From positions 1 through 64,000 of the forward strand of contig JAURYH010000028.1 in the NCBI GenBank assembly GCA_030653975.1: 64,000 nucleotides of DNA, in the 5' to 3' direction. The translations under genes and the position numbers were made by a program. How positions within the stretch are numbered: the first letter of the stretch is position 1; each line of letters starts with the position of its first letter. This DNA is from Hydrogenophaga sp. Its GTDB lineage: Bacteria > Pseudomonadota > Gammaproteobacteria > Burkholderiales > Burkholderiaceae_C. A model generated the notes under the pieces. That model was not told where the DNA came from and searched no databases. It worked only from the letters and a program-made list of their open reading frames with translations. Below are positions 2,198 through 58,114 of this stretch, piece by piece.

Positions 2198-2382
2198 GAG
2201 CAGTCTCCTCAGGTGTTGTGGGAACAGGTAACACATGAATGTGCGCAAAGGCTCTTACGAGCCACTTACATGGACGCGACGGTCCCCAGCGCGCACCAAG
2301 CCGCCACTCTACAATGCCGCCAAAGCCCTGAGGCTCGATCGCCTTCTTCTGTACGTTCGCCCCCGGCAACACACCCATTTCC

Positions 2383-2982
2383 ATGACCGCTCCCGTCAAA
2401 ACTCCCGTCGCCATCCGCTCCCTGCCCAACCTGATTTTTGCCAGCCGCTGGCTGCAGTTGCCGCTGTATCTTGGCCTGATCCTGGCTCAGGCCATCTACG
2501 TTTTCCATTTCTGGGTGGAGCTGGTTCACCTGATCGAGGCGGCCTTCGGGAGCAAGGATGCGCTGGCCGCGCTGGTTCACAGCATCGGCTACAAGGAATC
2601 GGCCGATGTCACCTCGCTCAACGAAACCATCATCATGCTGGTGGTGCTGGCGCTGATCGACGTGGTCATGATCTCGAACCTGCTGATCATGGTGATCGTG
2701 GGTGGCTACGAAACCTTCGTGAGCCGCATGAACCTGGAGAGCCACCCGGACCAGCCCGAGTGGCTGAGCCATGTGAACGCTTCGGTGCTGAAGGTCAAGC
2801 TGGCCACCGCCATCATCGGCATCAGCTCCATCCACCTGTTGAAGACCTTCATCAACGCGGCCAACTACGATGAAAAGGTGCTCATGTGGCAGACCATCAT
2901 TCATGTGGTGTTCCTGCTCAGCGCCATGGCCATCGCCATGACCGACCGACTGATGGTGCATCCAGCGACCAACACCCACTGA
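2383..2982 (+). CDS. UPF0114 (YqhA-like, TIGR00645) membrane protein
   Basis: This 199-residue protein has three to four hydrophobic segments (about residues 27-48, 78-110, 135-158 and 163-180). The core motif IDVVMISNLLIMVIVGGYE and the downstream FVSRMNLESHPDQPEWL are hallmarks of the UPF0114/TIGR00645 family of small inner-membrane proteins. The biochemical role of the family is not established. The gene stands alone, is divergent from acs, and is closed by a strong hairpin shared with the convergent fumC. Confidence 0.9.
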   Translation: MTAPVKTPVAIRSLPNLIFASRWLQLPLYLGLILAQAIYVFHFWVELVHLIEAAFGSKDALAALVHSIGYKESADVTSLNETIIMLVVLALIDVVMISNLLIMVIVGGYETFVSRMNLESHPDQPEWLSHVNASVLKVKLATAIIGISSIHLLKTFINAANYDEKVLMWQTIIHVVFLLSAMAIAMTDRLMVHPATNTH

Positions 2983-3005
2983 TCGCCCGGACTCGCACAG
3001 GATGA

Positions 3006-3027
3006 AAAGCGGCCACCCGGCCGCTTT
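3006..3027. terminator. Bidirectional terminator between UPF0114 gene and fumC
   Basis: A perfect 9-bp stem (AAAGCGGCC / GGCCGCTTT) with a 4-base loop sits between two convergent genes. A-tracts and T-tracts at the two sides allow it to end transcripts from both strands. Confidence 0.8.
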
Positions 3028-3051
3028 ATTCGTTCTGCCTCCTGGGCAGCG

Positions 3052-4437
3052 TCAACGCCCGGTCATGTCGCCCGGCACCACCCACCGATCAAACTGCTCG
3101 GCGCTCACATGGCCGGAAGCCAGCGCAGCCTCTCGCAGGGTCGAGCCTTCCCGGTGTGCTTTCTTCGCAATCTCGGCGGCCCGGTCGTAGCCGATGTGCG
3201 GGTTGAGTGCCGTCACCAGCATCAAGGACCGCTCCAGCAACTCGTTGATGCGCGCGCGGTTGGGCTGGATGCCTGCAGCGCAGTGCGCGTCGAAGCTGGT
3301 CATGCCGTCGGCCAGCAAGCGCACGCTCTGCAGGAAGTTGTGGGCCACCATCGGACGGAACACGTTGAGCTCAAAATGGCCCGAGGCACCGCCGATGTTG
3401 ATGGCCACATCGTTGCCCATCACCTGGCAGCACAACATGGTCAGCGCCTCGCACTGCGTCGGGTTGACCTTGCCCGGCATGATGGACGAGCCCGGCTCGT
3501 TCTCAGGAATCGACAGTTCGCCCAGTCCGCTGCGTGGGCCACTGGCGAGCCAGCGCACATCGTTGGCGATCTTCATCAGACTCGCCGCCAGCCCTTTCAA
3601 CGCGCCATGGGCGTGCACCAGCGCATCGCAACCGGCCAGCGCTTCGAACTTGTTGGGTGCGCTCACCAGCGGCAGGCCGGTGTGCCGGGCCAGCTCGGCC
3701 GCCACCTGCTCGGCGAAACCCGCTGGCGCGTTGAGCCCGGTACCCACCGCCGTACCGCCGAGCGCGAGTTCGCACAGGTGCGGCAGTGCGGCGCGCACAT
3801 GGCGCTCAGCGTGCACCAGCTGCGCCGCCCAACCCGAGATTTCCTGCCCCAACGTGAGCGGCGTGGCGTCCTGCAGGTGGGTGCGACCGATCTTCACGAT
3901 GCCGTCAAAGTCCGTCGACTTGGCGGTCAGCGTGTCTTGCAGCGCGATCAGCGCCGGCAGCAATCGGTGGGTGAGTCCGTCCACCGCCGCCAGGTGCATG
4001 GCGGTGGGAAACACATCGTTGGACGACTGGCTGCGGTTGACGTCGTCGTTCGGGTGCACCAGCCGCCCCTCGCCACGCGTACCGCCCAACAGCTCGCTGG
4101 CGCGGTTGGCCAGCACCTCGTTGGCGTTCATGTTGGTCTGCGTGCCAGAACCGGTCTGCCAGATCACCAGCGGGAACTCGGCATCCCACCGCCCACCGAT
4201 CACCTCTTCGGCCGCGGCCTCAATGGCTCGCGCCTTGTCGGGTGCCAGACCGGCAAGGCTCTGGTTCACCACGGCACAGGCCCGCTTGACCTGGACCAGC
4301 GCACCGATCAGCTCACGCGGCATCCGCTCTCCAGAAATGTCGAAGTGCTGCAGGGAACGCTGGGTTTGCGCCCCCCACAGGTGGTCCGCAGGCACCTCGA
4401 TCGGTCCCATGCTGTCGCGTTCGGTACGGGTGTCCAT
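3052..4437 (-). CDS. fumC: Fumarate hydratase, class II (oxygen-stable)
   Basis: The 461-residue protein matches the usual FumC length (460-467). It interconverts fumarate and L-malate in the TCA cycle without an iron-sulfur cluster. The fumarase/aspartase superfamily motifs are all visible: [28 protein letters not shown] with the catalytic-region His, and the signature loop [10 protein letters not shown] near residue 325. The start at 4437 has GGAGG upstream and fits the family N terminus. The frame stays open far upstream over the divergent class I fumarase gene, but that part is a GC-rich shadow. Its neighbour being a second, unrelated fumarase suggests isoenzymes switched by iron or oxidative state. 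Confidence 0.97.
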
Positions 4438-4569: not shown

Positions 4570-6123
4570 ATGACCACGAGCATCCGCCAGAACGACCTGA
4601 TCGAATCCGTCGCCGCCGCCCTGCAGTACATCAGCTACTACCACCCGGCCGACTACATCGCCCACCTGGCCCGCGCCTACGAACGCGAGCAGAGCGTCGC
4701 CGCCAAAGACGCGATCGCGCAGATCCTGACCAACAGCAAGATGAGCGCCACCGGCCACCGTCCGATCTGCCAGGACACCGGCATCGTCAACGTCTTCCTC
4801 AAGGTCGGCATGGACGTGCGCTGGGAAGGCTTTTCCGGCAGCCTGGACGACGCCATCAACGAAGGCGTGCGCCGCGGTTACAACCACCCCGACAACACGC
4901 TGCGCGCCAGCGTCGTGGCCGACCCGCAGTTCGACCGCAAGAACACCAAGGACAACACGCCGGCCGTGATCTTCACCGAGATCGTGCCCGGCAACACGGT
5001 GGAAGTGACCGTGGCCGCGAAGGGCGGCGGCTCGGAAAACAAGTCCAAGATGGTCATGCTCAACCCGGGCGACAACGTGGTCGACTGGGTGCTGAAAACC
5101 GTGCCCACCATGGGCGCCGGCTGGTGCCCGCCGGGCATGCTGGGCATCGGCATTGGCGGCACCGCCGAAAAAGCCGTGCTGATGGCCAAGGAAAGCCTGA
5201 TGGACGACCTCGACATGTACGAGCTGCAGGCCAAGGCCGCCAAAGGCGAGAAGCTCAGCAAGGTCGAAGAGATGCGCCTGGAGCTGTTTGACAAGGTCAA
5301 CGCGCTGGGCATCGGCGCGCAGGGTCTGGGCGGCCTGACCACCGTGCTCGACGTCAAGATCAAGATGTACCCCACGCACGCGGCCAGCAAGCCCGTGGCC
5401 ATGATTCCCAACTGCGCCGCCACGCGCCACGCCCACTTCGTGCTCGACGGCAGCGGCCCGGTCTACATCGACCCGCCGAGCCTGGACCTGTGGCCCGACG
5501 TGGCCTGGACGCCCGACTACGTCAAGAGCAAGAAGGTGGACCTGAACGCCCTCACCGCCGCCGAAGTGGCGAGCTGGAAACCGGGTGACACGCTGCTGCT
5601 CAACGGCAAGATGCTCACCGGCCGCGATGCCGCGCACAAGCGCATCCAGGACATGCTGGCCAGAGGCGAGAAGCTGCCGGTGGACTTCACCAACCGCGTC
5701 ATCTACTACGTCGGCCCGGTTGATCCGGTCAAGGGTGAAGCCGTCGGCCCCGCCGGCCCCACCACCGCCACCCGCATGGACGGTTTCACCGAGATGATGC
5801 TGGCCCAGACCGGCCTGATCGCCATGGTCGGCAAGGCCGAGCGCGGCCCGGTCGCCATCGAAGCCATCAAAAAGCACAAATCGGCCTACCTGATGGCCGT
5901 GGGCGGCGCCGCGTACCTGGTTTCCAAGGCCATCAAGACCGCCCAGGTCGTGGGCTTCGCCGACCTCGGCATGGAAGCCATCTACGAGTTCGATGTGGTC
6001 GACATGCCGGTGACCGTGGCGGTGGATGCGGGTGGAACCAGCGCCCACATCACCGGCCCGGCCGAGTGGAGCAAGCGCATCGCCTCGGGCGAATTCAAGG
6101 GCATCGCGGTGGCCGCCGCTTGA
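4570..6123 (+). CDS. Fumarate hydratase, class I ([4Fe-4S]-dependent)
   Basis: This 517-residue single-chain class I fumarase carries both the alpha-type (TtdA/FumA N-half) and beta-type (C-half) domains. Candidate cluster ligands are Cys67 (RPICQDTG), Cys186 (GWCPPG) and Cys282 (PNCAATRH), which match the three conserved cysteines of the family. The C-half contains [15 protein letters not shown] and [19 protein letters not shown] motifs. The chosen ATG at 4570 gives the family N terminus; no strong ribosome-binding site is seen. The stop overlaps the murI start by one to two bases, so the two are co-transcribed and probably translationally coupled. Confidence 0.95.
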
Positions 6124-16714: not shown

Positions 16715-19287
16715 GCCGGCACGCCCTCGCGGGGCCGCCGGGCACGTTGCAGCCCCATCACCAGCAGCAACAAGACCATGGCAGGCAAGAACAACCACTC
16801 TTTGGCCGGGCGTTCAGCCGGCACTTCGGCCGACACGATGCGGAAGCCCTGCTCCATGCCCAGCTTTTCAGCCGGGCTGCCAAACTTCACGGCGGCGATC
16901 AGCAGCTCGTCGCCCTGCGCCATCACCGTCAGGCCCGCGTTGGCCATCCGCTCGCGCGCTGTGCCGGGTTGACCCAAGGGCAACAGCACCCCTTTGCGGA
17001 TGTCCTTGCCATCCAGGTTCATGCCTTCGATCCAGATCCGCTTGCCCGCACCGGCCGGCGCTTGCTCGATGAGCGACGTCATCTGGGCGGCGGGCACCTC
17101 GTCAAACGGCGGATAGAGCATGTCCCACCAGAAACCGGGCCGGAACAAGGTGAAGGTGATCAGCAACAAGGCCAGGGATTCGTACCAGCGCGACTTGACC
17201 AGGAAAAAGCCTTGCGTGGCTGCGGCAAACACCAGCATGGCCACCGTGGCACTGACGACGGTGAGGATGAGGTGCAGGGGGCCGGACAGCCCGATCAACA
17301 ATAACTGGGTGTTGAAGATGAACAGGAACGGCAGGATGGCCGTGCGCATGCTGTAGTAGAAGGCCGTGATGCCGGTCTTGATGGGGTCGGCGCGCGCAAT
17401 CGCCGCCGCTGCAAACGAGGCCAGCCCCACCGGCGGCGTGACGTCGGCCATGAGGCCGAAATAAAACACGAACATGTGCACCGCGATCAGCGGCACGATC
17501 AGGCCGCTCTGCGCGCCCAGCTCCACCACCACCGGCGCCATCAGTGTGGACACCACGATGTAGTTGGCCGTGGTGGGCAGGCCCATGCCCAGGATCAGGC
17601 TGATGAGCGCCACCAGCACCAGCATGAGCATGAGGTTGCCGCCCGAGAGCAGCTCCACCAGTTCGGTCATCACCAGGCCCACGCCAGTGAGCGACACCGT
17701 GCCCACGATGATGCCGGCCGCCGCGGTGGCCACGCCGATGCCGATCATGTTGCGCGCGCCGGTGGCCAGGCCATCCACCAGGTCGGCAAAACCCTGCCGG
17801 GTGGCCGCACCCAGGCCACCGTGGCCGCGAAACACCGCGGTGATGGGCTTTTGCGTGAGCATGACGAAGATCATGAAGAGCGTGGCCCAGAAGGCGGACA
17901 GGCCTGGCGACATCTGCTCGACCATCAGGCACCAGATCAGCACCACCACCGCCAGCAGGTAGTGCAGGCCGGACTTCACGGTGGGCCCGGTTTCGGGCAG
18001 TTCGAACACGGGCGCGTTCGGGTCGTCCAGCTCCAGGACGGGCTGTCGGGCACCGAACCAGAGCAGGCCGACGTAGCTGGCCAGCAGACCGGCACCCACC
18101 ACCCAGACGGCGGCATCGCCCATGACGGTCTTGATCCAGCCAATGCCCCAATACACCGCGCCGGAGAGCACGATGAATCCCGCCACCGTCATGGCAAACG
18201 ACATCATGCGCTGCCCCGCCGTGGCGGTGCCGCGTCGCGGCAGGCCGACCATGTTGGCCTTGAGGGCCTCCAGGTGCACGATGTAGACCAGTGCGATGTA
18301 GGAAATGATGGCCGGCAGGAATGCGTGCTTCATCACCTCGATGTAGGGAATGCCGACGTACTCCACCATCAGGAAGGCGGCCGCGCCCATCACCGGCGGC
18401 ATGATCTGGCCATTCACCGAGCTCGACACCTCGACCGCGCCGGCCTGGTCGGGCCGGTAGCCCACCCGCTTCATGAGCGGGATGGTGAAGGTGCCGGTGG
18501 TCACCACATTGGCGATCGACGAACCGGAAATGATGCCGGTGGCCGCCGACGACAACACCGCCGCCTTGGCCGGGCCGCCACGCATGTGACCCAGCAGCGC
18601 AAAGGCCGACTTGATGAAATAGTTGCCGGCACCCGCCTTGTCCAGCAGCGAGCCGAACAGCACGAACAGAAAGATGAAACCGCTGGACACCCCCAGCGCA
18701 ACGCCGAACACGCCCTCGGTGGTCAACCACTGGTGGCTCATGGCGCGGTTGAGCGAGAACCCGCGGTGGGCAATCATGTCGGGCATGTAGGGCCCGCCAA
18801 AGGTGTAGCCCAGGAACACCAGCGCCACGATCACCATGGGCAGGCCCAGCACGCGCCGGGTGGCTTCCAGCAGCAACACGATACCGACCGCGCCGGTGTA
18901 GACGTCCATCGGTGTGGGCTGGCCGGGCCGGGTGGCCAGTTCCTTATAAAACAGGAACAGGTAGGCGGCACAGAAGGTGCCAACCAAAGCGAACACCCAG
19001 TCCGTGACCGGCACATAGGCGCGCGGCGAGCGCCTGAACGCGGGGTACGCCATGTACGACAGGAACACCGCAAAGGCGAGGTGGATGGCGCGGGTTTCGG
19101 TGTCGTTGAACACCAGAATACCCAGACTGAACGGCAGCGGCGAGGCGATCCAGAGCTGGAACAACGACCAGGCCAGCGCGACGGCCAGCAGCATGCGGCG
19201 CATCCAGGGACCGGGTTCGCGACCGCCGGTGTCGTTGTCGGCAACCAGCTGGTTGACATCGACTTCGGGTGCGGTGTGGGTTTTCAT
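16711..19287 (-). CDS. TRAP transporter, fused small/large permease (TAXI type)
   Basis: An 858-residue membrane protein of the 4TM/12TM fusion class of TRAP permeases (TIGR02123-like). The N-terminal four-helix DctQ-like part is followed by the DctM-like core with GIISGSSIANVVTTGTF and LGMGLPTTANYIV, typical of TAXI-TRAP. A soluble C-terminal extension of roughly 150 residues contains a PDZ-like segment (GSPAEKLGMEQGFRI). It uses the sodium gradient to move the ligand brought by the periplasmic protein encoded just upstream. The ATG at 19287 gives the family N terminus. A terminator hairpin lies between binding protein and permease. Confidence 0.95.
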   Translation of the reverse strand: MKTHTAPEVDVNQLVADNDTGGREPGPWMRRMLLAVALAWSLFQLWIASPLPFSLGILVFNDTETRAIHLAFAVFLSYMAYPAFRRSPRAYVPVTDWVFALVGTFCAAYLFLFYKELATRPGQPTPMDVYTGAVGIVLLLEATRRVLGLPMVIVALVFLGYTFGGPYMPDMIAHRGFSLNRAMSHQWLTTEGVFGVALGVSSGFIFLFVLFGSLLDKAGAGNYFIKSAFALLGHMRGGPAKAAVLSSAATGIISGSSIANVVTTGTFTIPLMKRVGYRPDQAGAVEVSSSVNGQIMPPVMGAAAFLMVEYVGIPYIEVMKHAFLPAIISYIALVYIVHLEALKANMVGLPRRGTATAGQRMMSFAMTVAGFIVLSGAVYWGIGWIKTVMGDAAVWVVGAGLLASYVGLLWFGARQPVLELDDPNAPVFELPETGPTVKSGLHYLLAVVVLIWCLMVEQMSPGLSAFWATLFMIFVMLTQKPITAVFRGHGGLGAATRQGFADLVDGLATGARNMIGIGVATAAAGIIVGTVSLTGVGLVMTELVELLSGGNLMLMLVLVALISLILGMGLPTTANYIVVSTLMAPVVVELGAQSGLIVPLIAVHMFVFYFGLMADVTPPVGLASFAAAAIARADPIKTGITAFYYSMRTAILPFLFIFNTQLLLIGLSGPLHLILTVVSATVAMLVFAAATQGFFLVKSRWYESLALLLITFTLFRPGFWWDMLYPPFDEVPAAQMTSLIEQAPAGAGKRIWIEGMNLDGKDIRKGVLLPLGQPGTARERMANAGLTVMAQGDELLIAAVKFGSPAEKLGMEQGFRIVSAEVPAERPAKEWLFLPAMVLLLLVMGLQRARRPREGVPA

Positions 19288-47261: not shown

Positions 47262-48134
47262 TCAGTGCACGCCGGCCAGAAACCGGTGCACCAGATCCAG
47301 CTGCTCCGGCACGTTGAGCGCCGGCGCATGTCCGCAGCCAGCGATCGTCACCACCAGCGCACGCGGCCCGCGGTCGCGCATGGCTTCGGCCGTGTCGGCC
47401 AGCAGCAGGTCCGAATCGGCGCCGCGCAGGCACAGCACCGGCACATCGATGCGGTCGTAGGCATCCCACAGCTCGTAGTCGTCCGGGTGCTGGGTGAACT
47501 GCATCACCATGGCCGGGTCGTAATGCGGCGTCACGCGGCCATTGGGCAGGCGGCGGGTGGAGCTTTCGGTGAGCAGCGTCCACTGTGCATCGGTGAGGAA
47601 TCCGTAGGGCTTGTAAATGCTGCGGAAGTACTGCTCCAGCTCACCCACGGTGTCGAATGAAGCCGGGTTGCCCGCGTAGCTGCGGATGCGCTCGATGGCC
47701 GCGTCAGCGATCTGGGGTCCGATGTCGTTGAGCACCAGGCGCTGGATGCGGCCCTGCAACGGACCGGCCGCGCACACCATGCCGATGGCGCCACCCATGG
47801 AAGTGCCCACCCATTCGAAGCGCTCGATCCGGAGCTGGTCCACCAGCGCCGTGGCGATGCGCGCGTAGAAGTCCAGGCAGTATTCGGTTTCGGGCTTCGG
47901 ACTCCATTGTGAAAACCCTCGGCCAATGGTGTCCGGGCAGATCACGCGGTGGCCCAGGGCGCTCAGGTGCGCGGCCAGCGCATCCATGTCGCGACCGGTG
48001 CGCGCCAGGCCGTGCCAGGCGATCACGGGCACCGATTCGGCCACGCCGGGCGCCGGCGCCCAGTCCATGAAATGGATCTCGCGGCCTTCGCACGCGAGGT
48101 AGCGCGACTGGGGAACCACAGCGGAGGTGTTCAT
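47262..48134 (-). CDS. Alpha/beta-fold hydrolase, last gene of the liv-type operon
   Basis: The 290-residue protein has an oxyanion-hole segment (IAWHGLARTGRD), nucleophile elbow GTSMGGA with Ser about 112, a likely acid Asp (CLRGADSDLLL) and the catalytic His in IAGCGHAPAL. Family members cleave esters, amides or C-C bonds; the substrate is unknown. Its ATG overlaps the livM TGA (ATGA), so production is tied to the transporter, suggesting that it acts on the imported compound. Confidence 0.9.
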   Translation of the reverse strand: MNTSAVVPQSRYLACEGREIHFMDWAPAPGVAESVPVIAWHGLARTGRDMDALAAHLSALGHRVICPDTIGRGFSQWSPKPETEYCLDFYARIATALVDQLRIERFEWVGTSMGGAIGMVCAAGPLQGRIQRLVLNDIGPQIADAAIERIRSYAGNPASFDTVGELEQYFRSIYKPYGFLTDAQWTLLTESSTRRLPNGRVTPHYDPAMVMQFTQHPDDYELWDAYDRIDVPVLCLRGADSDLLLADTAEAMRDRGPRALVVTIAGCGHAPALNVPEQLDLVHRFLAGVH

Positions 48135-49231
48135 TTCAAGCCCCTGAGTTTCGCAAGGACCGAGCGCTCGCGCAGCTTGCCGACGATGCCGGTGGGAAAG
48201 TAATAGACCGACAAGACGAACAGCACACCCATCCAGAGCAGCCAGCGGTCGGGTGTGAGCAGCGCGGGCAGCAGCGGGATGCCCGTCGAGGCCTCACCCG
48301 CCAGGCGCAGCAGGTCCTGCAGATAACTTTGCGCCAGCACGAAGAGCACGCTGCCGATCAGCGCGCCATACAGCGTGCCCATGCCGCCGATCACGACGAT
48401 GAGCAGGATGTCGAGCATGATCTCGAACGACAGCGAGGTGTCCGGCCCGTTGTAGCGCAGCCAGAGCGCGAGCAGGCAGCCCGCGAGCGTGGCGAATCCG
48501 GCCGAGAGCACGTTGGACAGCGTGCGGTAGACGACGGTTCGGTAGCCCAGCGCCTCGGCGCGGAAGTCGTTTTCTCGGATCGCCTGCAACACGCGGCCGA
48601 AGGGCGAATTCACGATGCGCAGAATGGTCAGGAAGATCGCCGTGACGGCCGCGAAAATCAGGTAGTAGGTGATCAGCTTGCCGTTCAGATCGACCTCGCC
48701 CAGCGGCGTCACCAGCGGCTCTTCGGTCAGCGTGAAACCGGGCGAGAGCAATTCAGGCACACGGAAACTCAAGCCGTCTTCACCGCCGGTGAAGTCCGAC
48801 AACTGCGACGCCAGCGTGAGGAAGGCCGAGGCCACGGCCAGCGTGATCATGGCGAAGAAGATCGCCTTCACCCGCAGCGAAAAGAGACCGATCATCAGCG
48901 AAAGCACGAGCGAAATCAGCAACGCACACAGAACGCCCAGCGCGATCGCACCCCACGACGGTTCTTCGGCCGCGTTGAGCGCAATCGCCACACCGTAAGC
49001 ACCGATGCCAAAAAACATGGTATGTGCAAAGCTCACGATGCCGGTGTAGCCCAGCAGCAGGTCGAAGCTGGCCACCAGCGCCACGAACACCAGCACCTTG
49101 GCCGCCACGTTGAGCGCCTTCACGCCCGGGAACAGGAAAGGCGCAAACGCCAGGCCGAGGAACAGGATGATCAGCAGCGCAGCCAGCCAGCGGCTGCGCG
49201 GGAGGTCTTTGGAGAGGAGACGGCTCAGCAT
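48131..49231 (-). CDS. livM: Branched-chain amino acid-type ABC transporter permease LivM
   Basis: The 366-residue protein has about ten hydrophobic helices and the LivM signature GYTGIVSFAHTMFFGIGAY and AIRENDFRAEALGY (coupling helix). It forms the channel with LivH. Translation starts at 49231 after GAGGT; a second ATG two codons upstream is also possible. A structured repeat separates it from livH. Confidence 0.94.
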   Translation of the reverse strand: MLSRLLSKDLPRSRWLAALLIILFLGLAFAPFLFPGVKALNVAAKVLVFVALVASFDLLLGYTGIVSFAHTMFFGIGAYGVAIALNAAEEPSWGAIALGVLCALLISLVLSLMIGLFSLRVKAIFFAMITLAVASAFLTLASQLSDFTGGEDGLSFRVPELLSPGFTLTEEPLVTPLGEVDLNGKLITYYLIFAAVTAIFLTILRIVNSPFGRVLQAIRENDFRAEALGYRTVVYRTLSNVLSAGFATLAGCLLALWLRYNGPDTSLSFEIMLDILLIVVIGGMGTLYGALIGSVLFVLAQSYLQDLLRLAGEASTGIPLLPALLTPDRWLLWMGVLFVLSVYYFPTGIVGKLRERSVLAKLRGLK

Positions 49232-49263
49232 GGGCAAACCTCGGGTATCAGGGGAGTTGCGTC

Positions 49264-49343: not shown

Positions 49344-50330
49344 TCATCTGTTGGTCACGGGGTACACGCCTTGGGGGCGCCACAAGAGAATGGCAACCAT
49401 CAGCGCGATGTTGGAGAACAGCGCGACCTTGGGGGCCAGGAAGCCGGTGTAGTTGGCCATCAGGCCGACCAGAAGTGCGCCGATGAGCGCGCCCAGCGTG
49501 GAGCCCAGGCCGCCGATGATGATGACGATGAAGATCAGCACGTTGACCTGCGCGCCCATCTGCGGCGTCACGCTCTGCTGGTACAGGCCCCACATCACGC
49601 CGCCCAGGCCGGCCAGCGCAGAGCCGGCCACGAACACGCCGACGAACAGGCGCTTGATGCGGTAGCCCAGCGACTCGACCATCTCGCGGTCCTGCACGCC
49701 GGCGCGGATCAGCAGGCCGACCTTGGTGCGGTTGAGCGTCCAGACCATGGCGGCGAACACGGCCGCACCCACCAGCACCGCCATGATGCGGTAGCGCTCC
49801 ACCGAGGCATCGCCCAGCAGCAGCGAGCCACGCAGCGCCTCCGGCAAGGGCAATGCAATCTGCTCGGGGCCCCAGATGACCTTGATCATCTCTTCGCCAA
49901 TGATCATGCCGCCCATGGTGATGAGGATCTGCTTCAGGTGCATGCCGTACACCGGGCGGATGATGAAACGCTCGAACACCAGGCCCAGCGCCCCCGCCAC
50001 CGCCATGGCCACCAGCATGGCCGGGAACAGCGCGAGCAGGTTCAGCCACAGGCTGTCGGCCGATGTGTAGCTGCCCATGCTGGCGAGCACCGTGGTGGCC
50101 ACGAAGGCGCCGAGCGCGATGAACACGCCGTGGCCGAAGTTGAGCACGTCCATCAGGCCGAACACCAGCGTGAGGCCCGAGGCGATGATGAAAACGATCA
50201 TGCCCATCGCCAGCCCGGCCACGGTGAGCGTGAGCCAGGTGGCCGGGCTGCCGATGGCCGGCAAGGCGGCCAGCGCCAGCACCGGCACCAGCGCCATGGG
50301 TTTCCAGTCGAGGTCTTTGAAAAGGCTCAT
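49344..50330 (-). CDS. livH: Branched-chain amino acid-type ABC transporter permease LivH
   Basis: The 328-residue membrane protein has GLTLVFGLMDVLNFGHGVFIALGAF, the LivH family signature, and VQDREMVESLGY as coupling motif. Its ATG overlaps the livF stop (ATGA). An insertion near residues 100-160 adds length relative to E. coli LivH (308). Confidence 0.94.
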   Translation of the reverse strand: MSLFKDLDWKPMALVPVLALAALPAIGSPATWLTLTVAGLAMGMIVFIIASGLTLVFGLMDVLNFGHGVFIALGAFVATTVLASMGSYTSADSLWLNLLALFPAMLVAMAVAGALGLVFERFIIRPVYGMHLKQILITMGGMIIGEEMIKVIWGPEQIALPLPEALRGSLLLGDASVERYRIMAVLVGAAVFAAMVWTLNRTKVGLLIRAGVQDREMVESLGYRIKRLFVGVFVAGSALAGLGGVMWGLYQQSVTPQMGAQVNVLIFIVIIIGGLGSTLGALIGALLVGLMANYTGFLAPKVALFSNIALMVAILLWRPQGVYPVTNR

Positions 50331-51064
50331 TGATGCGCTCCGAGGGACAGGCCGAGCAATCTCGACTGCATCGATTCATCGGCGGCCAGTTCGGCCATCG
50401 GGCCGCTGTGCACCACGCGCCCGTCGTCCATCACGGCGACCGTGTCGCCGAGCTGGCGTGCGAAGTTGAAGTTCTGCTCCACCAGCAGGATCGTGGTCTG
50501 CGCCGCCTTGAGCTGGCGAAAGGCTTCGATCATGTTCTGGATGATGGCCGGGGCCAGGCCCTTGCTGGGTTCGTCGATCAGCAGCAGCTGGCGCGGTTCG
50601 ACGATGGCGCGCGAGACCGCCAGCATCTGCTTCTGCCCGCCGCTGAGTTTGCCGGCAGGGTGGGTCCAGAACTTCTTCATGGCCGGGAACAGGCCGAAGA
50701 TCCATTCCAGCCGCGTGGTGTCGATGTGGTCCAGCGTGCGCGCGCCGCGTGCGGCCAGCAGCATGTTCTCGCGCACCGAGAGGTCCGAAAAGATGCCCAT
50801 GCTCTCGGGCACGTAGGCCACGCCGCTGTGGGCGATGTCGGGTGTGGGTTTCTGCGTGATGTCCTGGCCGTCGAGCACCACCGTGCCCTGGCTCGCATGC
50901 CACAGGCCCATGATGGTGCGCAGCGTGGTGGTCTTGCCCGCGCCGTTGCGGCCGAGCAGCATGGTCAGCTGGCCCTTGGGCACCACCAGGTCGACGCCGT
51001 GCAGGATGTGGTACGCGCCGATGTGGGTATGGACACCGTTCAGTTTAAGCAGGGTCTCGCTCAT
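50327..51064 (-). CDS. livF: ABC transporter ATP-binding protein LivF
   Basis: The 245-residue ATPase has Walker A GRNGAGKTT, signature KLSGGQKQM, Walker B LLLIDEPSKGLAP and the H-loop His replaced by Gln-context LLVEQNF, as is usual for LivF. It starts at an ATG that overlaps the livG stop (ATGA). Confidence 0.96.
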   Translation of the reverse strand: MSETLLKLNGVHTHIGAYHILHGVDLVVPKGQLTMLLGRNGAGKTTTLRTIMGLWHASQGTVVLDGQDITQKPTPDIAHSGVAYVPESMGIFSDLSVRENMLLAARGARTLDHIDTTRLEWIFGLFPAMKKFWTHPAGKLSGGQKQMLAVSRAIVEPRQLLLIDEPSKGLAPAIIQNMIEAFRQLKAAQTTILLVEQNFNFARQLGDTVAVMDDGRVVHSGPMAELAADESMQSRLLGLSLGAHQ

Positions 51065-51828
51065 GCGGCGACCTCCTCTTTGTCTTCAGGGTTGATGCCG
51101 AGATAGGCCTGCTGCACCACCGGCGAAGCAATGACCGTGGCCGGGTCGCCGTCGGCCACCAGCTCGCCGTTGTGCAGCACGATGATGCGGTCCGAGAGTT
51201 CGCGCACCACGTCCATCTTGTGTTCCACCAGCAGGATGGTCTTGGTCTTGTCGGCCTTGAGCTGGCGGATCAGGTTCAGGATCACGGGCACCTCGTCCAC
51301 GCTCATGCCGGCCGTGGGTTCGTCGAACATGAACACCTGCGGTTCCAGCGCCATCAGGATGCCGACCTCCAGCTTGCGCTGGTCGCCGTGCGGCAGACTG
51401 GACGCCAGCGCGTCGCCCTTGTCCCCAAGCGCCACGGCGTCCAGCACCTCATCGGCGCGCACCATCAGGTCCTTGCGGTCGCTCCAGATGCGCCAGAGGT
51501 TCAGCCCCGCACCCGCCCTCGCCTGCACCGCCAGGCGCACGTTCTCGCGCACGGTCAGATTGGGGAACAGGTTGGTCAGCTGGAACGCGCGGCCCAGACC
51601 CGCCTGCGCCCGCGACGGCGCACCCAGCGCCGAGATGTCCACACCGTTCAGGCGAACGCTGCCCGTCGAGGCCTTGATCTGCCCCGAGATGAGGTTGAAA
51701 TAGGTCGTCTTGCCGGCCCCGTTGGGACCGACGATGGCGGTCAGCGTGCCCGGCTCGAAAGCGCAGGACACGGCGTTCACCGCCACGTGTCCGCCGAAGC
51801 GGACCGTGAGATCGCGTGTTTCAAGCAT
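51061..51828 (-). CDS. livG: ABC transporter ATP-binding protein LivG
   Basis: The 255-residue ATPase has Walker A GPNGAGKTT, a Leu/Pro-type signature (LPHGDQRKLEVG), Walker B VFMFDEPTAGMS and H-loop LLVEHKMD. GGAG stands nine bases before the ATG at 51828; the longer frame runs into the repeat upstream and is not supported. It pairs with LivF in the heterodimeric ATPase. Confidence 0.96.
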   Translation of the reverse strand: MLETRDLTVRFGGHVAVNAVSCAFEPGTLTAIVGPNGAGKTTYFNLISGQIKASTGSVRLNGVDISALGAPSRAQAGLGRAFQLTNLFPNLTVRENVRLAVQARAGAGLNLWRIWSDRKDLMVRADEVLDAVALGDKGDALASSLPHGDQRKLEVGILMALEPQVFMFDEPTAGMSVDEVPVILNLIRQLKADKTKTILLVEHKMDVVRELSDRIIVLHNGELVADGDPATVIASPVVQQAYLGINPEDKEEVAA

Positions 51829-51987: not shown

Positions 51988-53184
51988 TTATCGCTTGTTC
52001 CGGATCGGAATCGCCAAGTCCTCAGGCTTGATCTCCCGCACCAGCTCCGGCACACCCCAGGCAAACGCCGGGTCCACCTTGATCTTGAAGTGGTACATGC
52101 TCTGCATCGCCTGGTGGTCTTCCTTGCGGAAGGTCATCTTGCCCTTGGGCGTGTCGAAGCTCATGCCTTCCATGGTCTGGATGAGCTTCTCGGTGTTGGT
52201 GTCGCCGTTGGTTTTCTTCAGCGCCGTCACCACCGCCATCGCAGCCGAGAAACCCCCGGCCGTGAAGAAGTCCGGCGGTGCCTTGTACTGCTTGTAGTGC
52301 TCGGCGACCATGGCGTCGTTCACCGGGTTCTTGGGGATGCCGAAGTAGTAATACAGCGCGCCTTCCATGCCGGGGAACTGCTTGTAGGCCACCATGGCCG
52401 GCAGGATGTTGCCGCCGGTGGCGAGCTTGATGCCATAGCGTTTTTCCAGGTCCAGCTCGGCGATCTTGGCAAACGGCGTCGGCGCACCCGACCAGCCGAC
52501 CGAGATGTACTTGGTGCCGGGCTGGTCTTTCAGCTTGTCGACGATGCGCAGCAGGCCGGCGGTGAAGTCGGTCGTGCCCACGGGCAGGTATTCCTCGTGC
52601 ACGATCTTGGCCTTCTTCATGAAGTCCTTGGCGGCCTTCACGCCGTCGCGACCGAAGGCGTTGTCGTTCGCCAGCATGGCGACCACGTTGCCCGGCTGGT
52701 CCAGCGCCACGGCGTTGGCGGCGGCGTCCTGGCTGCTGTTGCGGCCGGTGCGGAAGATGTATTTGTTCCACTTGTCGCCGGTGATGGAATCGGCCACCGC
52801 CGGCTCGACCAGCAGGATCTTCTTGTATTCCTCGGCCACCGGCAGCATGGCCAGCGCCACCGGCGATGCCGTCGGGCCAATCGCCAGATCGACCTTGTCG
52901 TCGGCGTAGGCCGCGGCGAGCAGGCTCTTGCCCACATCGGGCTTGCCCTGGTCGTCCTTCTCGAGCACCACGATCTTCTTGCCGCCCACCATCATGGTGC
53001 CGCCGGTGGCGTAGCTCAGGCCCATCATCAGGCCGGCCTGCGTCTGCTTGGCATAGGCCTCCAGCGGGCCGGTCTTGCTGTGGATGTGGGCGATGCGGAT
53101 CTCGCCCTTGTTCGACTGGGCAAAGGCCAGCGAAGCCGTGCAGGCGAGCGCGATGACCGCCAGACGGCGGGTGGTGTGGTGCAT
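51988..53184 (-). CDS. Liv-type ABC transporter substrate-binding protein
   Basis: The 398-residue periplasmic protein has a signal peptide (cleavage after SLAFA, residue 22) and the Peripla_BP_6 fold (IAHIHSKTGPLEAYAKQTQAG, GPTASPVALAMLPVAEEYK). It belongs to the group that binds branched-chain amino acids, amides, urea or aromatic acids; the ligand is not evident. AGGAG lies seven bases before the ATG at 53184. It is the first gene of the operon and is preceded by a sigma-54 promoter. Confidence 0.94.
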   Translation of the reverse strand: MHHTTRRLAVIALACTASLAFAQSNKGEIRIAHIHSKTGPLEAYAKQTQAGLMMGLSYATGGTMMVGGKKIVVLEKDDQGKPDVGKSLLAAAYADDKVDLAIGPTASPVALAMLPVAEEYKKILLVEPAVADSITGDKWNKYIFRTGRNSSQDAAANAVALDQPGNVVAMLANDNAFGRDGVKAAKDFMKKAKIVHEEYLPVGTTDFTAGLLRIVDKLKDQPGTKYISVGWSGAPTPFAKIAELDLEKRYGIKLATGGNILPAMVAYKQFPGMEGALYYYFGIPKNPVNDAMVAEHYKQYKAPPDFFTAGGFSAAMAVVTALKKTNGDTNTEKLIQTMEGMSFDTPKGKMTFRKEDHQAMQSMYHFKIKVDPAFAWGVPELVREIKPEDLAIPIRNKR

Positions 53185-53236: not shown

Positions 53237-53252
53237 TGCAGGGTCCGTGCCA
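53237..53252 (-). promoter_or_regulatory. Sigma-54 (-24/-12) promoter of the liv-type operon
   Basis: On the minus strand the sequence TGGCACG-N4-CTGCA matches the sigma-54 consensus TGGCACR-N4-TTGCW at all but one position. Its -12 element lies about 53 bases before the ATG at 53184. The gene of a sigma-54 activator ends 97 bases upstream, and three palindromes lie in between or overlap its 3' end. Confidence 0.85.
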
Positions 53253-53303
53253 AGCCAGAAGCCGATTGATTTCAAACAGGTTTTTCAAGCATTGCCCAGA
53301 ACA

Positions 53304-53374
53304 TGCCTGAACTTCAGACATATTTCGGGCGACAAAGATGTCTGATTTTCAGACGTTTGTCTGAACCTCAGACA
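53304..53374. promoter_or_regulatory. Three upstream activator palindromes for the sigma-54 regulator
   Basis: Sites at 53304-53320, 53339-53355 and 53358-53374 follow TGTCTGA-N3-TCAGACA; the third is perfect and the other two have one mismatch each. They lie about 50-140 bases upstream of the sigma-54 promoter. The last overlaps the 3' end of the regulator gene and encodes part of its VSEVQTNV tail, so coding and operator sequence are shared. Confidence 0.8.
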
Positions 53375-54863
53375 CATCCGCTGAAGCGAACGCAGCACCC
53401 AGCTTGTCGTACAGGCTGGCGCGCGAGATGCCGAGCAGGCGCGCCGCGGCCGCCCGGTTGCCACCACTGCGCTGCAGCGCCGCCGCGATCGCGCGTTGCT
53501 CCAGTTCGGCGATCTGCGCCGGCAGGGGTCGGGTATCGACGCCGCCCACGGCCACAGCCTGCACGGGTGCGGGCATCACGGCGGGCTCGATGCGGTCCAG
53601 CCCCGATTCGCGCAACACCGCCTCCACCTGCGGTGCGGCGATCTGCGGCGAGTCGCTGCGCAAGGCCAGTTGCTCCAGCACATTGCGCAGCTCGCGGATG
53701 TTGCCACGCCAGGGCTGGGCCGCGAGCAACGCGCGGGCGCAGGGCAGGAGGTCGAGCTGTTCGCCCGCACCGCGCGCGGCAATGTCCTCGCACAGGGCCT
53801 CGATCAACAGAGGCACGTCGTCGCGCCGCTCGCGCAGCGGCGGCACCCGGATCGGCAGCACGTTGAGCCGGTAGTACAGGTCTTCGCGAAAACTGCCCTC
53901 GCGCACCATGTGCTGGAGATCGCGCGAAGTGGCGGCCACCACGCGCACGTCGAAGCGCACCAGCTTGTTGGAGCCCAGCGGTTCGATCTCGCCCTCCTGC
54001 AGCGCGCGCAGGAGCTTGACCTGCACGGCCATCGGCATGTCGCCCAGTTCGTCGAGGAACAGCGTTCCGCCGTCGGCCAGTTTGAACTTGCCGTCGCGGC
54101 CCTTCTTGTCGGCCCCGGTGTAGGCGCCGGGCGCCACGCCGAAGAACTCGGCCTCCAGCAGCGCCTCGGGCACCGCCGCCATGTTCACGCTCACGAAGGG
54201 CCGTCCCGCGCGTGGCGACGCGGCGTGGATGGCGTGCGCGAGCAACTCCTTGCCGGTGCCGGTTTCGCCCAGCAGCAGCACCGGGCTGCTGGAACACGCC
54301 GCGCGCCGCGCCTGGCGCTTCACCTCCAGCGCGCCCGGGCTGGTGCCGACGAAGCTGGCAAAGGTGTATTTGGTGCGGCGCTGGCTGGCGAGTTCGCGCC
54401 GCGCGTCACTCAGGTCCTGCTCCAGCCGCGCGAATTTCGCGATCAGCGGTTGCAGGGTGGTTTCGGGGTGATCAAACAGCACGATGCCGAGCACGCCGAT
54501 CACCTCGCCGGCGTCGTCGCGCAACGGGATGCGGCTGACCACGAAGGTGCCGGCCTTGTTGGTCAGCAGGTCGATCAGGATCGGCTTGCCGGTGGCCAGC
54601 ACCTGGTGCATCTGCGTGTTCTGCACCACGCTGGAGACCGGGTGGCCGACGAAGTCTTCCTCGCGCTCGAAACCCAGCGCCGGCAGGAAGCGGCGGTACT
54701 GGTCGTTGATCCAGACCACGCGCGCCTTGCGGTCCACCAGCATCATGCCTTCGCTGGCGGTGGCGAACAGGTCGAACATGGAGCGCGCGGCCAGCTCCAG
54801 GATGCTCTGCGCGTCGCGGGGGAGTCGGTTGTCGGCGGTCATGGGTGGCATGGTAGCGCCCAT
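53349..54863 (-). CDS. Sigma-54-dependent transcriptional activator with PAS domain
   Basis: The 504-residue enhancer-binding protein has an N-terminal PAS domain (about residues 25-130; MMLVDRKARVVWINDQYRRFLPALG), a linker helix, and the AAA+ domain with Walker A GETGTGKE, GAYTGA (usual GAFTGA, with the Tyr variant known in the family), Walker B GTLFLDELGDMP and R-finger region. A Fis-type helix-turn-helix ends the protein (AAARLLGISRASLYDKL). The signal is probably a small molecule bound by PAS. The start at 54863 follows AAGGG; ATGs at 54851 and 54842 are alternatives. It is the obvious regulator of the downstream liv-type operon. Confidence 0.93.
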   Translation of the reverse strand: MGATMPPMTADNRLPRDAQSILELAARSMFDLFATASEGMMLVDRKARVVWINDQYRRFLPALGFEREEDFVGHPVSSVVQNTQMHQVLATGKPILIDLLTNKAGTFVVSRIPLRDDAGEVIGVLGIVLFDHPETTLQPLIAKFARLEQDLSDARRELASQRRTKYTFASFVGTSPGALEVKRQARRAACSSSPVLLLGETGTGKELLAHAIHAASPRAGRPFVSVNMAAVPEALLEAEFFGVAPGAYTGADKKGRDGKFKLADGGTLFLDELGDMPMAVQVKLLRALQEGEIEPLGSNKLVRFDVRVVAATSRDLQHMVREGSFREDLYYRLNVLPIRVPPLRERRDDVPLLIEALCEDIAARGAGEQLDLLPCARALLAAQPWRGNIRELRNVLEQLALRSDSPQIAAPQVEAVLRESGLDRIEPAVMPAPVQAVAVGGVDTRPLPAQIAELEQRAIAAALQRSGGNRAAAARLLGISRASLYDKLGAAFASADVSEVQTNV

Positions 54864-55015: not shown

Positions 55016-56509
55016 TCACGACCGCCGGTGCCAGGCCAGCAGGCGCGGCGTGACCAGCACCAGCACCACGATGGCCAGCAGCGTGGCCGACATGGGGCGC
55101 TGGAAGAACACCGCCACGCTGCCCTCGCCGATCGACATCGCGTTGCGGAACTGCGCCTCGGCCAGCGGGCCCAGGATCAGGCCCACGATCACCGGCGCGG
55201 TCGGAAAGTCGAACCGGCGCAGCACCACGCCCACCAGCGCCAGGCCGAACATGACGAACAGGTCGAACGCGCTCTGGCGCATGCCGTACACGCCCACCGT
55301 GGCAAAGATCAGGATGCCGGCGTACAGCGGCGCCTTGGGGATCTTCAGCAGCTTGACCCACAGCCCCACCATGGGCAGGTTGAGCACCAGCAGCATCACG
55401 TTGCCGATGTAGAGCGAGGCGATCAGCGCCCACACCAGCGTGGACGAGGTCTCGAACAGCTGCGGGCCGGCGTTGATGCCGTAGTTCTGCAAAGCGCTCA
55501 ACAGGATGGCGGCGGTCACCGAGGTGGGGATGCCCAGCGTGAGCAGCGGCACCAGGGTGGCCGTGACAGCCGCGTTGTTGGCGGCCTCCGGGCCGGCCAC
55601 GCCTTCGATGGCGCCGGTGGTGCCGAACTCCTTCTGGTGTTCGGGGTCGGCCAGCTTGCGTTCGGTCGCGTAGCTCAGGAAGGTCGGGATCTCGGAGCCG
55701 CCCGCCGGGATGGTGCCGAAGGGAAAGCCGATGAAGGTGCCTCGCAGCCAGGCGGGCCAGGAACGGCGCCACTCGGTCTTGGTCATGTGCGCCTTGTTCA
55801 TCTTGTTCAGGCTGGCTTCGCTCCTGCCTTCGTACAAGGCGTTGTAGAGCGCCTCGGTGACGGCAAACAGGCCCACGGCCACCAGCACCACTTCGACACC
55901 GTCCAGGAATTCGATGACGCCCGCGGTGTAACGCACCTGGCCGGTGATCTGGTCCATGCCCACCAGGCCCAGCGCCAGGCCGAAGAACAGCGCCGTGATG
56001 CCGCGTAGCGTGCTCTGCCCCAGCACCGCGCTCACGGTGGTGAAGGCCAGCAGCATCAGGCAGAAATACTCGGGCGGCCCGAGCTTGACGGCGAACTCGG
56101 CCAGGATGGGCGCGAACAGCGTCACCAGGATGGTGGCGATCGTGCCGGCCACGAAAGAGCCGATGGCCGAGGTGGCCAGCGCCGCACCGGCGCGACCGTT
56201 TTTGGCCATCTTGAAGCCTTCGAGCGCGGTCACCATGGTGCCGGTTTCGCCGGGCGTGTTGAGCAGGATGGAGGTGGTCGAGCCGCCGTACATGGCACCG
56301 TAGTAGATGCCTGCGAAGAAGATCATCGAGGCCGTGGCCTCGACCTGGCCGGTGATCGGCAGCAGCATGGCCACTGTGACCGCCGGGCCGAGTCCGGGCA
56401 AAACGCCGATGGCGGTGCCCAGCGCACAGCCGGCCAGCGCCCACAGCAGGTTGATGGGGGTGCCCGCGGTGGCAAAGCCACCGAGCAGGTTGTTCCAGAG
56501 GTCCAGCAT
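55016..56509 (-). CDS. tctA: Tripartite tricarboxylate transporter permease TctA
   Basis: The 497-residue membrane protein is the large subunit of a TTT-family transporter, with about twelve helices and the motifs [37 protein letters not shown] and [14 protein letters not shown]. It imports citrate-like or other carboxylates together with TctB and TctC. AAAGGA stands nine bases before the ATG. Confidence 0.96.
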
Positions 56510-56539
56510 GGTGAATTCCTTTCAGGTCCGTCGCGGGGC

Positions 56540-57076
56540 TTACAGCCAGCCGGTGCCTGTGAGGCCCGGCAGGTTGACGGCGAGGAATTTGGTGAACAGC
56601 CAGAAGGTGGGTGCCGAGATCAGCATGCCGATCACCGCGTCTTTCACCGTCTGAATCGCGTTGCCCGCGGGCTTGCCTTCGCTGATGCGCAGGCCACGCA
56701 CCGCCAGCGTGAAGCACAGCGCGCAGCTCAGCACGAAGCCGATGCTGGTGATGAGCGCCGCATTGCCCAGGATGCCGGCCGACACCCAGGCCATGGCGTG
56801 CCAGTCGCCGCGCGCCGCGCCCGAAGGCTCCGGCATGTTGCGAAAGCCCCCGGTGCGCACCTCCCAGATCAGCAGCACGCCACACAGCCCCATCGCAGCC
56901 GACACCACCCAGGGCAGGAAGTCAGGGCCCACGCCCGCATAACCCGCGTCCGACGGGATGTTGGCCGCGCCGTAGGCCAGTCCGGCGGCCAGCAGCACGG
57001 CGGCGATGCCCAGGGCCAGCTGACCCGGGCTGTGGTTTGCGCGTGCAGGTGGGTCTCGGGATTCGGTGGTGTTCAT
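56540..57076 (-). CDS. tctB: Tripartite tricarboxylate transporter small subunit TctB
   Basis: The 178-residue protein has four hydrophobic helices (about residues 20-38, 52-72, 90-125, 150-172) and GPDFLPWVVSAAMGLCGVLLI, typical of TctB. GGAGG precedes the ATG at 57076. It is placed between tctC and tctA, in the usual order tctCBA. Confidence 0.93.
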   Translation of the reverse strand: MNTTESRDPPARANHSPGQLALGIAAVLLAAGLAYGAANIPSDAGYAGVGPDFLPWVVSAAMGLCGVLLIWEVRTGGFRNMPEPSGAARGDWHAMAWVSAGILGNAALITSIGFVLSCALCFTLAVRGLRISEGKPAGNAIQTVKDAVIGMLISAPTFWLFTKFLAVNLPGLTGTGWL

Positions 57077-57083
57077 GTGGACC

Positions 57084-57121
57084 TCCAAAAAAACAAGGCC
57101 GCGACAAAATGTGCCGCGGCC
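57084..57121 (-). terminator. Attenuating hairpin between tctC and tctB
   Basis: Reading on the minus strand, GGCCGCG and CGCGGCC form a 7-bp stem around an 11-base loop, followed by TTGTTTTTTT. It lies in the 78-base gap between binding protein and permease genes. Confidence 0.7.
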
Positions 57122-57154
57122 GGTGGGCAGCGCGCCGGGCGCGGCGCTGCCGCG

Positions 57155-58114
57155 TCAGGCCATGCCGGCGCGCACCATGGTGGCCCGCAGGCTGGAGAAG
57201 TCGCGGTCCACGAACTCGTCAAACGCCTTGCCGGTCAGCAGCGCGGGCGTCCAGTTGTTCTTGACCAGCGCATCGGCCCAGGCCTTGCTATTGGTGGCCT
57301 TGACGATCATCTCGGTGAGTGCATCGCGCTGTGCCGGGGTGATGCCGGCCGCGCCGTACACGCCGCGCCAGTTCCCGATCTCGACGTTGATGCCCTGCTC
57401 CTTGAGCGTGGGCACATCGATGCCCTTCACGCGTTCGCCCGAAGTGATGCCGACGGCGCGCATCTTGCCGCTGTCGATGTACTGCTGGAACTCGCTGTAG
57501 CCGCTGCCGCCGATGGTGACGTTGCCGCCCAGGATGGCCGCCACCGCCTCGCCGCCGCCACGGAAGGGCACGTAGTTGATCTTGGCCGCGGGCACACCCA
57601 CCGACTGCGCGATCTGCGCCGCCGCGATGTGCTCGGTGGCGCCGCGCGAACCGCCGCCCCACTTGACGCTGCCGGGGTCCTTCTTGAGCTGTTCGACCAC
57701 GTCTTTCATGGTCTTGAAGGGCGAGTCGGCCGGCAGCACGAACACGTTGTATTCGGTCGTCAGGCGGGCGATCGGCGTCAACTGGGTGATCGACACCGGC
57801 GGCTTGCCGGTGATGATGCCGCCGAGCATGACGGCGCCCATCACCATCAGCGCGTTCGGGTCGCCCTTGCTCCCGTTGTAGAACTGGGCCAGGCCGATCG
57901 CGCCCGCGGCGCCGCCCTTGTTTTCAAAGGTCACCGAGTCGGCGACCTTGGCGTCGCGCAGGGCTTCGCCCAGGGCGCGGCCCGTGCCGTCCCAGCCGCC
58001 GCCCGGGTTGGCGGGAATCATCATCTTGACATTGGCGGCGGCCCAGGCCAGGTTCGGCAGGGCGCCGGCAGCGGCCATGGCGGCCAGGGATTTGAGGAAG
58101 GTATCGCGACGCAT
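57155..58114 (-). CDS. tctC: Tripartite tricarboxylate transporter substrate-binding protein TctC
   Basis: The 319-residue Bug-type periplasmic protein has a signal peptide with twin Arg at positions 2-3 (cleavage near LAWAAA, residue 26) and MIPANPGGGWDGTGRALGEAL, the ligand-binding signature of the family. IGGSGYSEFQQYI and PTLKEQGINVEIGNWRG are also typical. It delivers a carboxylate to TctAB. A motif shared with the porin/tctD intergenic region lies about 50-85 bases upstream. Confidence 0.95.
   Translation of the reverse strand: MRRDTFLKSLAAMAAAGALPNLAWAAANVKMMIPANPGGGWDGTGRALGEALRDAKVADSVTFENKGGAAGAIGLAQFYNGSKGDPNALMVMGAVMLGGIITGKPPVSITQLTPIARLTTEYNVFVLPADSPFKTMKDVVEQLKKDPGSVKWGGGSRGATEHIAAAQIAQSVGVPAAKINYVPFRGGGEAVAAILGGNVTIGGSGYSEFQQYIDSGKMRAVGITSGERVKGIDVPTLKEQGINVEIGNWRGVYGAAGITPAQRDALTEMIVKATNSKAWADALVKNNWTPALLTGKAFDEFVDRDFSSLRATMVRAGMA

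Follow-up and report, generated by a model that had tools for sequence, protein, structure and literature searches.

A putative sigma-54 control circuit of a Liv-type transporter operon in Hydrogenophaga and its proposed role in 3-hydroxybutyrate uptake

Described systems closest to the locus

A PAS/AAA+ activator acting from an enhancer on a sigma-54 promoter is a textbook type of control circuit. In Pseudomonas, HbcR (PA2005) is an RpoN-dependent activator that is reported to be activatable by (R)-3-hydroxybutyrate (3HB) (PMC10482368), and growth of P. aeruginosa on (R)-3HB is reported to require the dehydrogenase and its sigma-54 activator (PMC13390443). By analogy, the activator examined here may likewise serve (R)-3HB use as a dedicated sigma-54 regulator; unlike in the HbcR regulon, the target would be a Liv-type ABC transporter with a hydrolase, joined in some relatives by a PHB depolymerase. 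The HbcR-type trait of 3HB or acetoacetate genes near the regulator was found at four of seven distant orthologues of the activator and, in the form of PHB enzymes, in 19 of 75 operons (best 80 of 328 activator loci). Apart from the unassigned hydrolase, it is missing from the operon in the window, by which we mean the whole 64-kb stretch of DNA analysed.

For GcsR, a tandem row of three palindromes that serve as activator sites is described ahead of an RpoN site (PMC4894688). Such GcsR/TyrR-like circuits share the triple palindromes and the RpoN site with the present locus, in which the palindrome and the targets are different. LivKHMGF and UrtABCDE consist of the same five parts (a binding protein, two permeases, and two ATPases), but the proteins of the window scored under the curated cut-offs among the models listed, and the amino-acid-binding residues are unconserved. 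Type-2 depolymerase and 3HB-oligomer hydrolase, the enzymes of extracellular PHB degradation, occur singly or together in the operons of some relatives, whereas the operon of the window contains neither. In Ruegeria, an organic-acid transporter is reported to serve for 3HB (PMC11374999). A search of mainly open-access literature showed, among the titles listed, neither a Liv-type 3HB importer nor this operon, and no PHB degradation system with a coupled ABC transporter and sigma-54 control.

Activator, promoter, and palindromes

On the minus strand of the window, the genes are arranged in the order activator, binding protein, LivG, LivF, LivH, LivM, and alpha/beta hydrolase. The activator gene (53349–54842, minus strand) encodes a protein of 497 amino acids, for which a PAS-type sigma-54 activator with a Fis-type helix-turn-helix (HTH) had been proposed in a preliminary description of this DNA; the Pfam domains bear this out, with matches to Sigma54_activat (PF00158; 223.8 bits), HTH_8 (50.6 bits), and PAS_4 (25.5 bits; cut-off, 23.1), and to PAS_9 at 25.8 bits, under the cut-off of 27. 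The loop read from the window translation is GAYTGA, a variant of GAFTGA, and the protein thus combines the features of a sigma-54 enhancer-binding protein, namely an AAA+ domain, a GAFTGA-type loop, a Fis-type HTH, and an N-terminal sensor domain. The genome of the window holds one RpoN match and 18 matches to PF00158 (13 above 220 bits and five below 30 bits). A TctABC-type transporter (window positions 55016–58114; named by eye) precedes the activator in the same orientation, and a TctA homologue is likewise found upstream of the activator in 44 of the 64 loci with enough sequence, at less than 400 bases in 20 of them (best 80 of 328).

The near-perfect −24/−12 promoter claimed ahead of the binding-protein gene was recovered as TGGCACG-GACC-CTGCA (53252–53237, minus strand); no other stretch of the window matches TGGCACGNNNNYTGCW exactly. 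The last base of the box is 53 bases away from the A of the ATG (53184). At up to two mismatches, 34 such −24/−12-like patterns were seen in the window against 41 expected, showing no excess over chance. The three palindromes TGTCTGA-N3-TCAGACA described at enhancer distance were also present, all on the minus strand as putative enhancer sites: the distal site 1 (53358–53374) is exact and falls within the 3' end of the activator coding sequence, the middle site 2 (53339–53355; one mismatch) is 19 bases from site 1 and overlaps the activator stop codon, and the proximal site 3 (53304–53320; one mismatch) begins 68 bases before the −24 element, counted to the first base of the latter. If the second G of the box is numbered −24, their centres fall near −86, −121, and −140 relative to the expected start of transcription. 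The regulatory DNA thus partly dictates the C-terminus of the protein, since the final codons of the activator contain the distal palindrome and its stop codon is overlapped by the middle palindrome; the spacing is similar in many loci.

At up to three mismatches, these three are the only palindromes of the 64-kb window, all inside 71 bases, although three such lax matches per window are not improbable in themselves (shuffle mean, 1.53; at least three in 19 of 100 shuffles). Across the 74 contigs of the genome (4.09 Mb), there is no other palindrome with zero or one mismatch, and one extra site appears at two mismatches. This extra site lies between LysR-type and LigB-like genes (open reading frames read and named by eye) and is taken as chance or as the site of another regulator. 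The −24/−12 consensus, the upstream sites, and the RpoN gene in the genome are the elements of a sigma-54 promoter, and judged from the sequence, the locus almost certainly carries a sigma-54 control circuit.

Conservation of the circuit was surveyed in relatives of the activator, of which 328 were confirmed and the best 80 loci were analysed, from Hydrogenophaga, Ramlibacter, and other Burkholderiales. The binding-protein gene stands downstream of the activator in 75 of these 80 loci; in the other five (L047, L048, L061, L064, and L085), the contig ends first. A Liv-type transporter with a dedicated sigma-54 activator had been called uncommon, a view that does not hold within its own group, where this pairing accounts for the same 75 of the best 80 of 328. 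The full order of SBP, LivG, LivF, LivH, and LivM is present in 65 of the 75 loci and absent in 10. In L073, a TonB-dependent receptor gene (2157–4373) intervenes between activator and binding protein, possibly as an outer-membrane route for oligomers. A second Liv-type binding-protein gene (17167–18297) occurs between LivM and the hydrolase in L078, and gaps of about 1.8 kb separate the same two genes in L050 and L071.

The promoter scan covered 75 regions (74 loci, L073 being excluded for its intervening gene, and the window). A box with up to two mismatches was found in 73 of them, compared with a mean of 0.6 and a maximum of 4 in 200 shuffled sets; L020 and L040 have no such box in the region cut, and in L040 a box lies two bases before the set start, which is therefore probably mis-set. 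Within the 150 bases before the box, these 73 regions, the window included, contain 167 palindromes with up to three mismatches, and since 100 shuffled sets gave a mean total of 0.77 and a maximum of 3, a chance origin of the palindromes is untenable. At least one palindrome is present in 70 of the 73 regions, so that the expected recurrence of the palindrome at orthologous loci was observed within the group; 36 regions have three. The site starts cluster at about −122/−103/−68 or about −111/−92/−68 from the first base of the box, the distal pair keeping its constant 19-base spacing and being shifted in some loci by about 10 bases, or one helical turn. In the 10 of 73 regions in exact register, conservation is 0.93 in the palindrome arms, 0.99 in the promoter, and 0.57 at the remaining positions, which is the pattern that a putative working enhancer and promoter would be expected to show.

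In a draw of 200 genomes, the exact palindrome was found in seven and stands between activator and binding protein in five. The other two are G110 and G084, the contig of the latter ending soon after the site. In G110 (L117, about position 5206; G110:C250:9205), the exact palindrome is located between IclR-type regulator and acyl-CoA dehydrogenase genes (named by eye) and may be the site of another regulator.

Transporter, hydrolase, and PHB enzymes

The Liv-type periplasmic binding protein (51988–53184, minus strand; 398 amino acids) matched Peripla_BP_6 at 186.6 bits and is followed on the same strand by the LivG-type ATPase (51061–51828) and the LivF-type ATPase (50327–51064), both assigned by profile match and synteny, the LivH-type permease (49344–50330; BPD_transp_2, 129 bits), and the LivM-type permease (48131–49237; BPD_transp_2, 118.7 bits; TTG start as listed, provisional). 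Against NCBIfam, every transporter part remained below the curated cut-off of every model among the matches listed, the binding protein reaching 63.7 bits with the LivK-type model (cut-off, 477). A urea transporter UrtABCDE was ruled out by scores that were all under the Urt cut-offs (in bits, score versus cut-off: UrtA, 61.7 versus 492.75; UrtB, 161.6 versus 250.3; UrtC, 121.3 versus 296.2; UrtD, 208.2 versus 304.1; UrtE, 218 versus 285.8).

The last gene of the operon codes for an alpha/beta hydrolase (47262–48134, minus strand; Abhydrolase_1, 70.3 bits). The coupling of this hydrolase with the transporter, noted at the outset, recurs in the relatives: the gene lies at most 200 bases from LivM in 49 of the 65 full operons, farther away in seven, and was not found in the sequence stretch in nine (best 80 of 328). 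Ser112, Asp242, and His269 are invariant in 57 sequences and are inferred to have a catalytic role. We propose that the enzyme is an intracellular 3HB-oligomer hydrolase.

The nearest solved chains to the binding protein are 3n0x (526 bits) and 3nnd (505 bits), labelled 'possible substrate binding protein' and presumably from Rhodopseudomonas palustris; weaker relatives include 4ey3, 4evq, and 4f06 among others, a group that includes aromatic-acid binders. Identity to E. coli LivK and LivJ is 20–21%. In an alignment at this low identity with five family members, Ser79 of LivJ is kept, and Thr102 and Glu226, which we take to hold the ammonium group of the amino acid, are replaced by Val and Ile, respectively; read cautiously, since the aligned proteins are so distant, this argues for a carboxylate ligand without an amino group. 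The protein is proposed to be a binder of 3-hydroxybutyrate or its oligomers.

The binding protein of the window shares 95% identity with that of L017 and 96% with that of L028, but no more than 81% with the L013 and L016 proteins; for the other operon proteins, identity to L013 and L016 is 91–97%. The binding-protein gene (51988–53184) is thus a recombinant, mosaic piece in an operon that otherwise tracks its nearest relatives L013 and L016. Over 56 loci, distance correlations are 0.40–0.52 between the binding protein and the other genes, as against 0.71–0.90 among the latter. By hand count in L013–L046, a depolymerase is absent from the window and from all 14 loci whose allele resembles that of the window (at least 89% identity), and five loci with the other allele have one, an association confounded by phylogeny.

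In 14 of 70 eligible loci (best 80 of 328), a PHB depolymerase gene adjoins the binding protein, flanked on its other side by LivG in 13 cases and by a contig end in L020. The inserted gene matches NF050059, the type-2 extracellular short-chain PHA depolymerase (L015, 378.8 bits; L056, 413.5 bits; cut-off, 280). A 3HB-oligomer hydrolase gene follows LivM in 11 loci of the same set, with PF10605 scores of 933.9 bits in L072 and 1028.2 bits in L049. Depolymerase or oligomer hydrolase is present in only 19 of the 75 operons, some contigs ending short.

When the L015 depolymerase was used as a query against 250 family genomes, 44 matches were obtained at E ≤ 1e-60, the best 30 of which were examined with 1.5 kb flanks. 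Of these 30, 24 stand between the binding protein and LivG of this operon, a figure that leans to in-operon enzymes because the query itself came from such an operon; without the query's own locus (L119 = L015) and L120 (= L078), the count is 22 of 28. The depolymerases outside the operon are L127, L134, L138, L143, L144, and L145. That of L144 (G147) lies about 52 kb from the activator, binding protein, Liv genes, and oligomer hydrolase, and has its own box with one mismatch and palindromes 91 bases (two mismatches) and 67 bases (four mismatches) upstream, in a register also found in operons; the G147 operon has three palindromes (2, 2, and 3 mismatches) after the activator, 102–144 bases from a poorer, three-mismatch box. 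For L138, L143, and L145, neither a box nor a site with up to three mismatches was found in the 700 bases searched, and their genomes have no activator match at E ≤ 1e-130. The depolymerase of L127 (G212) adjoins a second activator copy and has a two-mismatch box only, with no site found. In L134 (G046), the activator is present in the genome and the stand-alone depolymerase has neither box nor sites in the 700 bases searched, which speaks against a simple regulon.

The data did not show vertical descent of the depolymerase as a part of the operon: on the activator tree (72 rows), its distribution requires 12 changes, seven of them forced by starred branches, compared with a shuffled mean of 13.0, and Mantel correlations are 0.06–0.07 with the binding protein and 0.24 with LivG (6 of 1000 permutations). 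This scatter and the low Mantel values make it probable that the depolymerase was lost and/or replaced several times, in each case at this one position. The nearest activator relatives of the window, L013 and L016, have an operon without the depolymerase, and the next-nearest, L014 and L015, have one with it, fitting a possible loss in the lineage of the window.

The genome of the window contains a 3HB dehydrogenase (L149; 354.6, cut-off 307.05) and two type-1 depolymerase-like family members above cut-off, L112 (G000:C54) and L113 (G000:C1); no palindrome with up to two mismatches was found at these three genes in the stretches searched. A −24/−12-like box with one mismatch lies 305 bases upstream of the L112 open frame. 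The same genome has no type-2 depolymerase (best match, E 1.3e-4) and no match to the 3HB-oligomer hydrolase with a model that detects the relatives' genes, the latter absence being less certain because the control genomes were also empty of this enzyme. With neither enzyme found, the organism may use oligomers freed by others.

Distant orthologues were sought in a class-wide draw of 369 genomes, eight of which, that of the window included, have an activator match at E ≤ 1e-95. The seven distant activators show 45–57% identity, and 3HB or acetoacetate genes lie near four of them. L203 has TRAP genes upstream and a 3HB dehydrogenase (TIGR01963, 353 bits; cut-off, 307.05) one gene away on the opposite strand. 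L202 has an acetoacetate-CoA ligase (804.5; cut-off, 520.9) and Liv-type ATPases. L200 has a TRAP permease and a CoA-transferase (PF01144, 111.2 bits; NCBIfam FadX, 421.7, under the cut-off of 750), together with a two-mismatch palindrome 59 bases past the end of the activator frame. The L199 activator has a GntP-type permease and an acetoacetyl-CoA reductase (386.9; cut-off, 302.1) as neighbours, a setting that resembles the permease and bdhA genes around PA2005. TRAP genes only are found at L201, and no clear 3HB gene adjoins L204, with its acyl-CoA ligase neighbour, or L205, with neighbours unrelated by eye. The class of transporter thus varies among the distant activators and the 3HB/acetoacetate theme persists in four of the seven.

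A phylum draw gave binding-protein orthologues (E ≤ 1e-110) in 23 of 398 genomes, the window's included. None of the 16 outside the family (L165–L180) has a palindrome with up to three mismatches within 300 bases. An activator homologue (52–54%) stands upstream in L169 and L170, the only two of the 16 with a −24/−12-like box (two and one mismatches, 244 and 202 bases upstream), and a CoA-transferase gene upstream in L166 (PF01144 confirmed) and L168 (by eye). These four loci are from one genus of another class, probably Alphaproteobacteria.

Substrate, rival explanations, and meaning

Because PHB-degrading enzymes sit inside the same gene cluster in relatives, 3HB is the most likely substrate, and a 3HB-type substrate is in our view likely. 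On the sequence evidence, it is likely that the operon serves the dedicated uptake of (R)-3-hydroxybutyrate and/or its short oligomers under an HbcR-like sigma-54 switch; that oligomers are imported rather than the monomer has about an even chance. The preliminary description had instead suggested a nitrogenous substrate, and the corresponding explanation is import of a branched-chain amino acid, an amide, or another nitrogenous compound under sigma-54, which would agree with the Liv-type components throughout the operon, the weak UrtA and LivK family matches, and the general knowledge that sigma-54 often controls nitrogen genes. Those matches are far under cut-off, however, and the presumed ammonium ligands Thr102 and Glu226 are unconserved, so that such a substrate is very unlikely; in addition, the enzymes inserted in the relatives' operons, PHB depolymerase and 3HB-oligomer hydrolase, act on PHB and 3HB oligomers. 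In sum, the earlier interpretation stands, as far as sequence evidence reaches, for the sigma-54 circuit, the adjacent activator, and the coupled hydrolase, and falls for the nitrogenous substrate. A ligand closer to 3HB, such as acetoacetate, 3-hydroxyvalerate, another short hydroxy acid, or an aromatic acid, with PHB genes having joined secondarily, would account for the relationship to the 4ey3/4evq/4f06 set, for the CoA-transferase and acetoacetate-CoA ligase adjoining some orthologues, and for the majority of operons without a depolymerase; the 3HB dehydrogenase and acetoacetyl-CoA reductase near distant activators, and two separate PHB enzymes at fixed positions that point to 3HB, make it unlikely.

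The palindromes themselves might bind another regulator, for example a repressor, with the activator acting elsewhere. The exact palindrome beside the IclR-type and acyl-CoA dehydrogenase genes of another family genome, and the lack of palindromes at L169 and L170, which lie outside the family and do have an activator homologue upstream, could be read in this way. On the other side, the sites lie at enhancer distance directly between the activator and its target, they usually number two or three, their distal pair is shifted in some loci by about one helical turn, they are the sole sites with zero or one mismatch in the genome, and they recur upstream of the distant G147 depolymerase gene, and we regard a different regulator as extremely improbable. 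A broader reading, put forward tentatively and with more doubt than conviction, is that of a locus for utilisation of the bioplastic polymer, in which one sigma-54/activator switch would govern a secreted depolymerase and an oligomer hydrolase together with a high-affinity ABC importer for 3HB oligomers and a hydrolase that cuts them in the cytosol, and from which window-like lineages would have lost the depolymerase, swapped the binding-protein allele, and come to scavenge the oligomers of their neighbours.

For the likely function in 3HB uptake, the following course can be proposed. The activator would sense 3HB or a breakdown product via its PAS domain, and its dimers would occupy two or three of the TGTCTGA-N3-TCAGACA sites, whose sequence is conserved, and open the likewise conserved sigma-54 promoter before the binding-protein gene. 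The binding protein and LivGFHM would then import 3HB or its oligomers, the latter to be cut to 3HB by the cytosolic alpha/beta hydrolase, and in some relatives a secreted-type PHB depolymerase and a 3HB-oligomer hydrolase from the same gene row would take part.

If this is true, a Liv-type transporter, of a kind that tends to be annotated as 'branched-chain amino acid', serves PHB/3HB turnover in Hydrogenophaga and related Burkholderiales, and a Liv-type ABC importer for PHB oligomers would be without precedent among the open-literature titles listed. PHB depolymerase expression would be under sigma-54 control in some of these bacteria. The locus would supply a regulator, a promoter, and an importer for oligomer uptake, a step of bioplastic breakdown for which neither transport nor regulation was found described among the open-literature titles listed, and the distribution of the enzymes suggests a split between producers and scavengers among close relatives.
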